A stretch of DNA of 49,043 nucleotides from Deltaproteobacteria bacterium (lineage in GTDB: Bacteria > Desulfobacterota > Desulfomonilia > Desulfomonilales > Desulfomonilaceae), in NCBI GenBank assembly GCA_021777225.1, contig JAJYDQ010000027.1, positions 1 to 49,043 on the forward strand, in the 5' to 3' direction. Below the pieces are notes generated by a model. The model made no database searches. It saw nothing but the letters and a program-made list of their open reading frames with translations, and was not told the origin of the DNA. Both the position numbers and the translations under genes were made by a program. Positions 2-3,712 of this stretch are shown here, in pieces; within the stretch, counting starts at the first letter, position 1, and every line of letters starts with the position of its first letter.

Positions 2-3000
2 GAGGCCTTAAAATGGTATGTTAAGGCTGCTGGACAAGGGCTCCCGGACGCTCAGAACAATCTCGGACTCATGTACAAAAATGGTTTGGGCGTACCTCAG
101 GATTATGATGAGGCGATAAAGTGGTATCGACTTGCAGCCGAGCAGGGATATGCAATCGCTCAAAGTAACCTTGGTTTCATGTACGATAATGGCTTTGGCA
201 CAGCTCAGGATTATGATGAAGCGATAAAGTGGTATCGACTTGCAGCCGAACAAGGGTATTCGGTAGCTCAATTCAATCTTGGGGTCATGTACGAAAACAG
301 CCTTGGCACGGCGGAAGATTATGATGAGGCGGTGAAATGGTATGTTAAGGCTGCTGGACAAGGGCTCCCGGACGCTCAGAACAATCTCGGACTCATGTAC
401 AAAAATGGTTTGGGCGTACCTCAGGATTATGATGAAGCGATAAAGTGGTATCGACTTGCAGCCGAGCAGGGATATGCAATTGCTCAAAGTAACCTTGGTT
501 TCATGTACGATAATGGCTTTGGTACAGTTCAGGATTATGATGAAGCGATAAAGTGGTATCGACTTGCAGCCGAACAAGGGTATTCGGTAGCTCAGTTCAA
601 TCTTGGGGTCATGTACGATAACGGCTTTGGCACAGCTCAGGATCATACTGAAGCGATAAAGTGGTATCGACTTGCAGCCGAGCAAGGTCTGCCGGACGCC
701 CAAAACAGTGTCGGGCTTATATACAAAAATGGCTTTGGCACAGCTCAGGATCATGCTGAAGCGATAAAGTGGTATCGACTGGCCGCCGAGCAAGGACATT
801 CGGTAGCACAATTCAATCTGGGAGTCATGTACGATAACGGCTTTGGCACAGCTCAGGATCATGCTGAAGCGATAAAGTGGTATCGAATAGCCGCCGAGCA
901 AGGCTTGCCGGAAGCTCAAAACAATCTGGGATTTATGTATAAAAACGGTCTTGGAACATCTCAGGATTTTGCGGAAGCGGTCAAGTGGTATCGGCTCGCA
1001 GCCAAACAGGAATACGCAGAAGCTCAGGGCAATTTGGGTTTTATGTATGACAACGGTTTAGGCGTTCCTCAGGATTACACGGAAGCGGTCAAGTGGTATC
1101 GGCTCGCAGCTGGGCAAGGATACCCGTCGGCTCAATTCAATTTGGCTTTTATGTATGATAACGGTTTAGGTGTCCATCAAGACCATGGCGAAGCGCTAAA
1201 GTGGTGCCGTTTGGCCGCTGAACAAGGACATTCACAAGCTCAGTTCAATCTGGGGGCCATGTACGAAAACGGCCAGGAGGTCTCACAAGATTACAAAAAG
1301 GCGATCAAATGGTACCGCCTGGCTGCTGAGCAGGGTTTGGCCGACGCCCAAAATAGTCTTGGACTTATGTACAAAAACGGACTCGGAACACCTCGAGACT
1401 ATGCTGAAGCGGTTAAGTGGCACGGACTGGCCGCAGAGCAGGGATATGCCGTCGCTCAGAGCAATCTCGGTTTTATGTATGATAATGGTCTTGGGGTATC
1501 ACAGGACCATAAAAAGGCGGTAAAATGGTATCGGCTCGCTGCTGATCAAGGATATTCCGTTGCTCAATTTAACCTTGGTGGAATGTATGAGAACGGCTTT
1601 GGTGTCGCCAAAGACTATAAAAAGGCCCTTAAATGGTATCGTAAAGCCGCTGATCACGGATTAGCCGACGCCCAAAATAATTTAGGACTTATGTATAAAA
1701 ACGGCTTCGGGGTCTCCAGAGACTATGGTGAAGCGGTCAAGTGGTATCGAAAGGCCGCTGACCAGGGACATTCAGTGGCTCAGAGCAATCTTGGCTTTAT
1801 GTACGATAACGGTTTAGACGTACGCGAGGACCATGATGAAGCAATAAGGTGGTATCGACTTGCAGCTGAACACGGGTATTCCGTCGCTCAATTCAATCTA
1901 GGCGCCATGTACGAAAATGGTCTCGGCGTGCCTCAAGATTATGTTAAAGCTCTAAAATGGTATCGACTTGCAGCCGAACAAGGGCTACCAAACGCTCAGA
2001 ACAATCTGGGGTTCATGTTTAAGAATGGTTTCGGTGTTCAACAAGACTATACAGAGGCTATTAAGTGGTATCGGCTCGCCGCTGAACAGGGCCTGCCTGA
2101 TGGTCAAAATAATTTGGGACTGATGTACGAAAATGGTCTTGGTGTGCATCAGGACTATAAGGAGGCTCTAAAATGGTATCGACTTGCAGCGGAACAGGGC
2201 CTGCCCGACGCTCAAAATAATCTGGGGCTCATGTACAAAAACGGTTTCGGAGTTCTGAGAGATCACAATGAAGCTGTAGAGTGGTATCGACTTGCAGCGG
2301 AACAGGGCCTGCCCGACGCTCAAAATAATTTAGGACTTATGTATAAAAACGGTCGTGGGGTGTCGCAGGATTATCGCGAGGCGATCAAGTGGTACAAACT
2401 GGCCGCCAATAAGGGATATTCATTAGCTCAATTCAATCTGGGGGTAATGTATGAAAACGGCCATGGCATTACTCAGGATTATGTTGAAGCGTTAAAGTGG
2501 TATCGTAAAGCGGCTGATCAGGGTCTGGCCGACGCTCAATCCAGATTGGGGTCCATGTACGCTCACGGCCAGGGAGTAAGCCAGGATTATGGTGAAGCTA
2601 AAAGATGGTTTGATAAAGCTGCGGAACAAGGCTTATCAGAGGGTCAATGCAATCTTGGTATTGTTTATTTTTATGGATGGGGTGTTCGACAGGATTATAA
2701 AGAAGCTGCTAAATGGCTTAAATTGGCGGCTCAAAATGGAGACTCAAGGTCCGAATCATATCTAAAAGAGATTGAAGGTCAGCTAAAACAGAAAAGACGC
2801 AAGCCGGCTACGGAGAAACCGAAGTCAAAACGCTCGAAACCGTCAAAAGAAACCAGCGCTTCATTGGATCAACTGTTTGCGGAACTAAATAAAATGGTAG
2901 GTCTGCAACGAGTTAAAGATGAAATAGACCAGCTTATAAAATTTGTACGTGTACAAAAGATGAGGAGTTCTCAAGGTCTTAAGGCGGATTCATTGTCCCT

Positions 3001-3712
3001 TCATTGCGTGTTTTTTGGAAACCCAGGCACCGGGAAAACCATGGTTGCAAGAATTTATGGCAAGATGCTGAAAGCGCTTGGTTTATTGAGCAAGGGCCAT
3101 CTTGTCGAAACCGACAGATCTGGCTTGGTGGCGGGATATGTTGGACAAACTGAGCTGAAAACGGATCAGAAAATTTCCGAGGCTTTGGGTGGCATACTTT
3201 TCATTGATGAGGCTTACTCGCTGTACAAAGGTAAAGATACCCAGTCAGATTACGGGAGCGAGGCCATCAGCATACTCCTGAAAAGAATGGAAGATCATCG
3301 GGATGATTTTGTAGTTATCGTAGCTGGGTACGAAAAGCCCATGGCCGAATTTCTACTATCCAATGAGGGCTTAAAAAGCCGTTTCTCAACCAAGATTCGA
3401 TTCCCGGATTACTCTCCTGAAGAGCTTCTCGAGATATTCGAATTGTTTTGTAAGGAAGGTAACTACGAAATTCAGTCAGCCGCCCTGGAACTGGTTTCAT
3501 ATATACTGAACAACGAATATAGAGATCGTGATGAAACATTTGGAAATGGACGCCTGGTTCGGAACTTTTTCCAGAGTATAGTGAGGAATCAATCGGTTCG
3601 GATTGCGGAAACAATTTCGGATTCCACACATTCTGATTTGGTTACTATACTTCCCGATGATGTCCGTCCACTTTTGGAGAAGAAACAGGAACCAGTTTCG
3701 CCTAGCTATTAA
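2..3712 (+). CDS. Sel1-repeat array fused to a CbbX/SpoVK-type AAA+ ATPase (5' end outside window)
   Basis: The frame is open from the window edge, so the true start lies upstream; residues here are counted from the ATG at 71. Residues 1-900 are 25 consecutive Sel1-like repeats, each exactly 36 residues (M-Y-x-N-G-x-G-V/T-x-Q-D-Y-x-E-A-x-K-W-Y-R-x-A-A-E-Q-G pattern). A basic linker (901-930) follows, then an AAA+ domain with Walker A GNPGTGKT (983-990), Walker B GGILFIDEA (1040-1048), a sensor-1 region near 1081-1087, an arginine-finger-like SRF (R1104) and a sensor-2-like GNGR (R1161). The ATPase resembles the CbbX/SpoVK family. Sel1 arrays are protein-binding solenoids, so a chaperone-like or scaffold-bound remodelling ATPase is the natural inference; the client is unknown. 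No signal peptide can be judged because the start is missing. It ends facing the UbiA-type gene. Confidence 0.93.
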   Translation, partial: EALKWYVKAAGQGLPDAQNNLGLMYKNGLGVPQDYDEAIKWYRLAAEQGYAIAQSNLGFMYDNGFGTAQDYDEAIKWYRLAAEQGYSVAQFNLGVMYENSLGTAEDYDEAVKWYVKAAGQGLPDAQNNLGLMYKNGLGVPQDYDEAIKWYRLAAEQGYAIAQSNLGFMYDNGFGTVQDYDEAIKWYRLAAEQGYSVAQFNLGVMYDNGFGTAQDHTEAIKWYRLAAEQGLPDAQNSVGLIYKNGFGTAQDHAEAIKWYRLAAEQGHSVAQFNLGVMYDNGFGTAQDHAEAIKWYRIAAEQGLPEAQNNLGFMYKNGLGTSQDFAEAVKWYRLAAKQEYAEAQGNLGFMYDNGLGVPQDYTEAVKWYRLAAGQGYPSAQFNLAFMYDNGLGVHQDHGEALKWCRLAAEQGHSQAQFNLGAMYENGQEVSQDYKKAIKWYRLAAEQGLADAQNSLGLMYKNGLGTPRDYAEAVKWHGLAAEQGYAVAQSNLGFMYDNGLGVSQDHKKAVKWYRLAADQGYSVAQFNLGGMYENGFGVAKDYKKALKWYRKAADHGLADAQNNLGLMYKNGFGVSRDYGEAVKWYRKAADQGHSVAQSNLGFMYDNGLDVREDHDEAIRWYRLAAEHGYSVAQFNLGAMYENGLGVPQDYVKALKWYRLAAEQGLPNAQNNLGFMFKNGFGVQQDYTEAIKWYRLAAEQGLPDGQNNLGLMYENGLGVHQDYKEALKWYRLAAEQGLPDAQNNLGLMYKNGFGVLRDHNEAVEWYRLAAEQGLPDAQNNLGLMYKNGRGVSQDYREAIKWYKLAANKGYSLAQFNLGVMYENGHGITQDYVEALKWYRKAADQGLADAQSRLGSMYAHGQGVSQDYGEAKRWFDKAAEQGLSEGQCNLGIVYFYGWGVRQDYKEAAKWLKLAAQNGDSRSESYLKEIEGQLKQKRRKPATEKPKSKRSKPSKETSASLDQLFAELNKMVGLQRVKDEIDQLIKFVRVQKMRSSQGLKADSLSLHCVFFGNPGTGKTMVARIYGKMLKALGLLSKGHLVETDRSGLVAGYVGQTELKTDQKISEALGGILFIDEAYSLYKGKDTQSDYGSEAISILLKRMEDHRDDFVVIVAGYEKPMAEFLLSNEGLKSRFSTKIRFPDYSPEELLEIFELFCKEGNYEIQSAALELVSYILNNEYRDRDETFGNGRLVRNFFQSIVRNQSVRIAETISDSTHSDLVTILPDDVRPLLEKKQEPVSPSY
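11..293 (+). repeat. First copy of a 324-bp-offset tandem duplication inside the Sel1 array
   Basis: Bases 11-293 match 335-617 at a fixed offset of 324 bp (three 108-bp Sel1 units), with about five mismatches by eye. Other units of the array are far more diverged in DNA, so this pair looks like a recent unequal recombination or gene-conversion event. The offset is a multiple of 3, so the reading frame is kept. Confidence 0.9.
335..617 (+). repeat. Second copy of the 324-bp-offset tandem duplication
   Basis: Near-identical partner of 11-293. Differences seen are single bases near 432, 480, 522, 527 and 591; beyond about 617 the copies diverge into different Sel1 units. Confidence 0.9.

Follow-up and report, generated by a model that had tools for sequence, protein, structure and literature searches.

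A giant, conserved Sel1-AAA+ protein in a Desulfomonilaceae genus: an unusually large variant of a known chaperone design

Introduction

A functional parallel for proteins that combine Sel1 repeats with an AAA motor is found in eukaryotic endoplasmic reticulum-associated degradation (ERAD), where SEL1L/Hrd3, a receptor with Sel1 repeats, and p97, an AAA motor, are two separate proteins. In bacteria, the characterised members of the SpoVK-EccA-CbbX clade of AAA+ proteins are dedicated-client chaperones, whose N-terminal domains vary and are thought to recruit substrates, and the clade includes envelope-related members (Delerue et al., PMC10659427). In this paper we describe a protein that carries both parts in one chain, a giant Sel1 solenoid followed by a motor of this clade. 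Its gene lies at one end of contig JAJYDQ010000027.1 (C3:1-49043) in the Deltaproteobacteria bacterium assembly GCA_021777225.1, and the window that we analysed is this entire contig of 49,043 nucleotides. A literature search found no paper joining Sel1 with CbbX (and AAA) or Sel1 with SpoVK, and broader Sel1/AAA searches gave nothing relevant.

Results

The gene is an open reading frame (ORF) of 1236 residues at 2-3712 on the plus strand, already open where the window begins. Its product is composed of a Sel1 array, a basic linker and a single CbbX/SpoVK/EccA-type AAA+ domain with its lid, in this order. Pfam finds Sel1 in 25 stretches (E 5.9e-292), with tandem 36-residue helix-loop-helix units above the cut-off for Sel1-like repeat proteins (PF08238), and then AAA (PF00004, E 5e-16, residues 1003-1135) and AAA_lid_6 (PF17866, E 1e-14, residues 1161-1221), both above cut-off. 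All 25 complete units begin exactly 36 residues apart, as an earlier, sequence-only reading had counted, and they are preceded at the contig end by 16 residues of a further unit. Chance does not account for any of these features.

The same reading had placed the start of the gene outside the window and expected a longer array, and both points are borne out. The genome is a 4.04-Mb draft of 153 contigs (97.6% complete), and a Sel1 search of it gave matches on contigs C3, C88 and C127 only. On C88 an ATG stands 655 bp from the contig end (MAKSEIDRIRRMAIAHNDP) and is followed by five and a half Sel1 units up to that end. The complete orthologues have matching N-termini (MVKSELERITRMAVAQNDP, MEKSEIDRIRRMAESQNDP), and the leader of 20 residues is conserved. 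By elimination among the Sel1 contigs, and because of this match, C88 (minus strand) and C3 (plus strand) carry the opposite ends of a single gene, which the assembly broke where repeats are near-identical. The end of C3 carries a 101-bp exact repeat whose copies are 324 bp apart; the two contig ends do not overlap, and the gap is from about 6 nt upward. The C88 part adds six Sel1 units, and the joined protein has at least 1,454 residues and at least 31 units. A signal or further domain at the N-terminus, which had also been considered, is absent: we found no signal peptide, transmembrane segment or extra domain there, and the soluble leader runs straight into Sel1. Since the N-terminus is non-hydrophobic (best 19-residue mean 0.37), the protein is probably cytoplasmic. 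Apart from this gene the genome has a single Sel1 locus, on contig C127 (L040:374-985, 1222-1539), with small internal Sel1 ORFs, one of which has a hydrophobic N-terminus resembling exported proteins.

The gene is present in four of the seven genus genomes: this one (G000), G001 (locus L043), G004 (L042, an uncultured Desulfomonile) and G006 (L041). The genomes that lack it have a completeness of only 82-83%. The orthologue is complete in L042 (1,672 residues, 37 units) and in L043 (2,038 residues by ORF, about 2,030 from the conserved Met, 47 units). The joint between Sel1 and AAA is real, because the last 1,200 residues of the proteins from three species align without a gap. In L041 a frameshift is found in the Sel1 array (about 1290-1345; G006:C255), just upstream of an intact AAA part; in this low-coverage metagenome-assembled genome (2.75x) an error and a recent pseudogene are indistinguishable. 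The contig that bears the complete gene in G004, C71, also has a short AAA_lid_6 fragment about 112 kb away from it (L128:6591-6830), possibly the remnant of a second copy. Between orthologues the AAA parts are 86-93% identical (dN 0.04-0.09) and the Sel1 parts 68-75% (dN 0.16-0.21), in comparisons where dS is mostly saturated. Both the array and the motor are under purifying selection, the motor more strongly, and the motor is the slowest-evolving part.

The AAA+ module has the intact motifs that had been read from the sequence. The Walker A and B motifs, the sensor-1 AGY, an Asn with the SR finger and the sensor-2 arginines show no or almost no variation among 79 relatives. For the clade signatures we used the definitions of Delerue et al. 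(PMC10659427): the AAA core is followed by AAA_lid_6, the sensor-1 region contains GY within an AGY that is invariant in the relatives' alignment, and both sensor-2 arginines (R1184 and R1187) are invariant, as are N1121 and R1127 of SR. An AlphaFold2 monomer model of the AAA part made with the 79 sequences has a mean predicted local distance difference test score (pLDDT) of 91.6. It is this model that we trust, as a 1,200-residue job with a three-sequence alignment gave a poor model of that part. Of the solved structures CbbX is by far the nearest, both in Foldseek (top hit, E 3.5e-24, versus 6.6e-10 for p97) and by fold comparison (Z 26-28, the next being about 18). By sequence, the module matches EccA1 and CbbX best in the PDB; EccA1 is missing from the fold-match lists, an absence that says nothing against it.

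The array is predicted by AlphaFold2, in the 1,200-residue job, to form an unbroken solenoid with two helices per unit across the 25 units (pLDDT about 90). Its units are of three types, AQN-, AQS- and AQF-, arranged N-S-F, which makes a triplet of 108 residues or 324 bp. The similarity of units three apart is above that of shuffled order in all three arrays (p 0.0005, 0.003 and below 0.0005), and the best-scoring tandem repeat has a 324-bp period and 7.6 copies. The N-S-F order, the similarity at this lag and the period make it a natural inference that the array grows by duplication of 324-bp triplets. The array also turns over, because orthology of units by position is partial against L042, where 12 of the 25 units find their best match at their own position, and slight against L043 (3 of 25).

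NCBIfam scores are all below their equivalog cut-offs: SpoVK (TIGR02881) is the best at 276 bits against 423, followed by EccA (TIGR03922, 244 against 467), CbbX (TIGR02880, 226 against 459) and the anti-phage ATPase IetA/IteA (NF042959, 31 against 510; PADLOC IetA E 3e-9). The genome has no match for the RuBisCO large subunit (PF00016), and its best match to EccC of type VII secretion (TIGR03925) has 58 bits against a cut-off of 347, a model that 8 of 14 control genomes also match, all below cut-off. With the clade signatures present, the three named families below cut-off and RuBisCO and EccC not found, we assign the protein on sequence grounds to the SpoVK-EccA-CbbX clade, but as none of CbbX, SpoVK and EccA.

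The investigation of the taxonomic distribution shows that such proteins are rare in the phylum. AAA_lid_6 was found in none of 11 other sampled genomes of the family and, phylum-wide, in just 6 of 395 genomes. In the tree, the four AAA domains of the genus form one clade (99), and their sister (99) is an Anaerolineaceae protein (L044) of 60% identity without Sel1. The nearest other relatives also have non-Sel1 N-termini. CbbX-type ATPases had been described in the sequence-only reading as usually standing alone, which does not hold: relatives carry TPR or beta-helix (EccA), type IV secretion system (T4SS) coupling-protein, PH-like or tandem AAA partners (PMC10659427), and there is one other Sel1 fusion. 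This is a Sel1 protein with two AAA modules (L216:592-3438, G647:C33), the only one in a Bacillota sample of about 300 genomes. It has a different place in the tree and so points to a fusion of independent origin, although the deep branches are weak; the Sel1-AAA architecture therefore probably arose more than once. In Bacteroidota and Cyanobacteriota samples of about 300 genomes each, none of the matches listed spans both Sel1 and AAA. On plasmids, 407 records match part of the Sel1-AAA query and none covers at least 80% of it, while viral contigs contain AAA relatives but none with Sel1 in the same ORF; phage records contain AAA relatives as well. Two further architectures were seen in these searches. 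Proteins of about 1,300 residues in which CbbX-type AAA/lid modules stand three or four in tandem (L223, L227) are found in many genomes of the Bacteroidota sample, and a viral contig carries a T4SS coupling protein (TraG/TraD-like) fused to a CbbX-type AAA module (L151:3760-6873).

The gene of this genome and its upstream neighbour, which has no Pfam match, are divergently oriented, and on the other side the gene converges with UbiA. Both sides belong to a surface-polysaccharide region, with a Wzx-like flippase, a GT1 glycosyltransferase and a beta-helix protein on C88 (L039:1-7046), and UbiA, a PMT-like transferase, GT2, DegT aminotransferase, a hexapeptide transferase and GFO/IDH on C3 (3829-13689). 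The surroundings elsewhere in the genus are different: a small ORF and a MarR gene flank the gene in L042, LexA stands beside it in L043, and isochorismatase beside it in L041. An Fe-S/TrmB gene is near it in both L042 and L043, on the downstream side in one of them and on the upstream side in the second. This genome (L039 about 736-875, minus strand) and L043 have in common a conserved stretch of about 100 bp before the gene, with a promoter-like pair TTGACC-18-TATTA(G/A), read by eye, and a short ORF-like stretch, IMLDLxxDxELLxxHHLRI. At the locus of the Anaerolineaceae sister (L044:8215-11375), the AAA gene is preceded on its strand by a restriction-endonuclease-like gene (PF22558, REase-ARP) and a 118-residue ORF. 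A 165-residue ORF overlaps its end, and ArdC-like and recombinase-like ORFs are nearby by eye, so that this is perhaps a mobile conflict locus.

Table 1. Features of the Sel1-AAA+ gene in the window; residue numbers are those of the 1236-residue ORF product.
Feature	Position	Strand	Remarks
3' part of the Sel1-AAA+ gene	2..3712	+	1236 of at least 1,454 residues; 5' part on contig C88, L039:2-655, minus strand
25 complete 36-residue Sel1 units	50..2749	+	residues 17-916; N-S-F triplets; solenoid arm
Solenoid cap and Lys/Arg-rich linker	2750..2866	+	residues 917-955; lowest conservation of all segments
CbbX/SpoVK/EccA-type AAA+ module with AAA_lid_6	2867..3709	+	residues 956-1236
Walker A, GNPGTGKT	3017..3040	+	residues 1006-1013
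Pore loop, GYVGQT	3134..3151	+	residues 1045-1050
Walker B, FIDE	3200..3211	+	residues 1067-1070
Sensor-1, AGY	3323..3331	+	residues 1108-1110; clade signature
Arginine finger, SR	3377..3382	+	residues 1126-1127
Sensor-2 region, RLVR	3551..3562	+	R1184, R1187

Discussion

Our results show that the giant Sel1-AAA+ protein is real and conserved, and that it is an unusually large variant of a known chaperone design. We suggest, with a probability of about 0.6, that it is a remodelling chaperone in which a hexameric AAA+ motor is combined with a Sel1 arm for recruiting a dedicated client. The remodelling machine with a large binding scaffold that had been proposed from the sequence is thus supported. 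By analogy with the family, the C-terminal AAA+ module would most likely form an ATP-driven hexamer, which would tug on the client through its tyrosine pore loop and thread or partially unfold it; that the client is a dedicated one is likewise suggested by the family. The Sel1 superhelix, with at least 31 units here and 37 and 47 in sister species, would be the arm that recruits the client, tethered to the motor by the flexible basic linker.

Several observations weigh against this chaperone. A ring with six solenoids of more than 1,000 residues each may be sterically demanding. A Lys stands here at the position of the CbbX/EccA1 Arg (NxGxR), though most close relatives have Lys there too. Furthermore, we found no client, partner or conserved neighbour among the four genus loci and 80 loci of relatives, where the most recurrent neighbour family occurs in 10 of the 80, mostly in one lineage. 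The sequence-only reading had looked to a constant neighbour as the sign of a system; because the neighbours differ at every locus, a system is not supported.

Among the alternatives, a chimera of the assembly is the easiest to dismiss. The contig does end within the repeat array of a 153-contig draft, but the joint lies 2.8 kb from that end and is present in three other species of the genus. An assembly error, which the earlier reading had allowed for, is therefore excluded, and we regard this explanation as refuted by independent genomes. Hardly more credible is an N-terminally extended Rubisco activase (CbbX) or type VII secretion chaperone (EccA): the closest fold and the top PDB sequence matches would fit it, but it is already contradicted by scores far below the equivalog cut-offs, by the lack of a RuBisCO large subunit and by an EccC match under its cut-off. 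The protein could instead serve a cell-envelope polysaccharide or lipid-linked-sugar enzyme, just as SpoVK serves MurG and EccA1 is proposed to serve mycolate enzymes. Envelope-related members are known in the clade (PMC10659427), and the gene lies here between a flippase/glycosyltransferase cluster and UbiA, glycosyltransferase and aminotransferase genes. Against this, the orthologues in L041, L042 and L043 are found in unrelated surroundings (isochorismatase/cyclophilin; MarR and an Fe-S gene; LexA), and here the gene is not in an operon with its neighbours, being divergent from one and convergent with the other. We therefore consider such an envelope role unlikely.

A defence or stress device had also been proposed from the sequence, and in the form of a conflict ATPase the solenoid would sense a phage or mobile-element protein which the AAA module would then remodel. 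The patchy occurrence in the genus and near absence from the rest of the phylum, the fast turnover of the array and the REase-ARP gene adjoining the sister AAA would all be in line with this. However, several genomes of the genus without the gene are just 82-83% complete, no nuclease or effector is found beside any genus copy, and the protein itself has no effector domain. PADLOC gives only weak generic AAA matches for the protein and none for the neighbours tested, and we consider a defence role rather improbable. A more speculative idea, to which we give a similarly small chance, is a receptor and unfoldase in one chain, a bacterial analogue of SEL1L/Hrd3-p97. Its superhelix would catch one client, large or polymeric, or else a foreign protein, and pass it to its own AAA ring, with the arm length tuned by gain and loss of 108-residue triplets. 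A possible part in immunity is hinted at by the restriction-endonuclease-like gene next to the sister protein.

The genus supplies natural variants of the proposed chaperone, in which the same motor is joined to arms of at least 31, 37 or 47 repeats. These could show how arm length and repeat type set the choice of client, and how solenoid arrays grow by duplication of super-repeats. Unless a client is found, such details are a curiosity at the level of the genus.

Compared with the known systems, the protein shares its AAA+/AAA_lid_6 module with SpoVK (stage V sporulation protein K, the MurG chaperone), but its Sel1 array exceeds 1,000 residues and it scores under the SpoVK cut-off. CbbX, the red-type Rubisco activase (3syk, 3zuh), has the closest fold, 39-40% identity and a Y-x-G pore loop, but is a protein of about 300 residues without Sel1, and the present genome has no RuBisCO match. 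The Bacillota Sel1-AAA-AAA protein (948 residues) also has Sel1 N-terminal to CbbX-type AAA+ in one chain; it differs in its five Pfam Sel1 stretches, its two AAA modules and the phylogenetic distance of its AAA. Sel1 solenoids such as 6ok3, 4bwr, LceB (8sxq) and SEL1L/Hrd3 have the same repeat fold, the bacterial ones at about 40% identity, but far fewer units and no fused AAA motor. The nearest characterised overall design is EccA, the ESX/type VII secretion chaperone (9lur), with a helical-repeat (TPR) N-terminus and a C-terminal CbbX-type AAA; EccA has a short TPR domain where the present family has 31-47 Sel1 units, and no type VII secretion system was found here. What is notable and new is thus the size and the triplet organisation of the Sel1 arm on a motor of a known clade.

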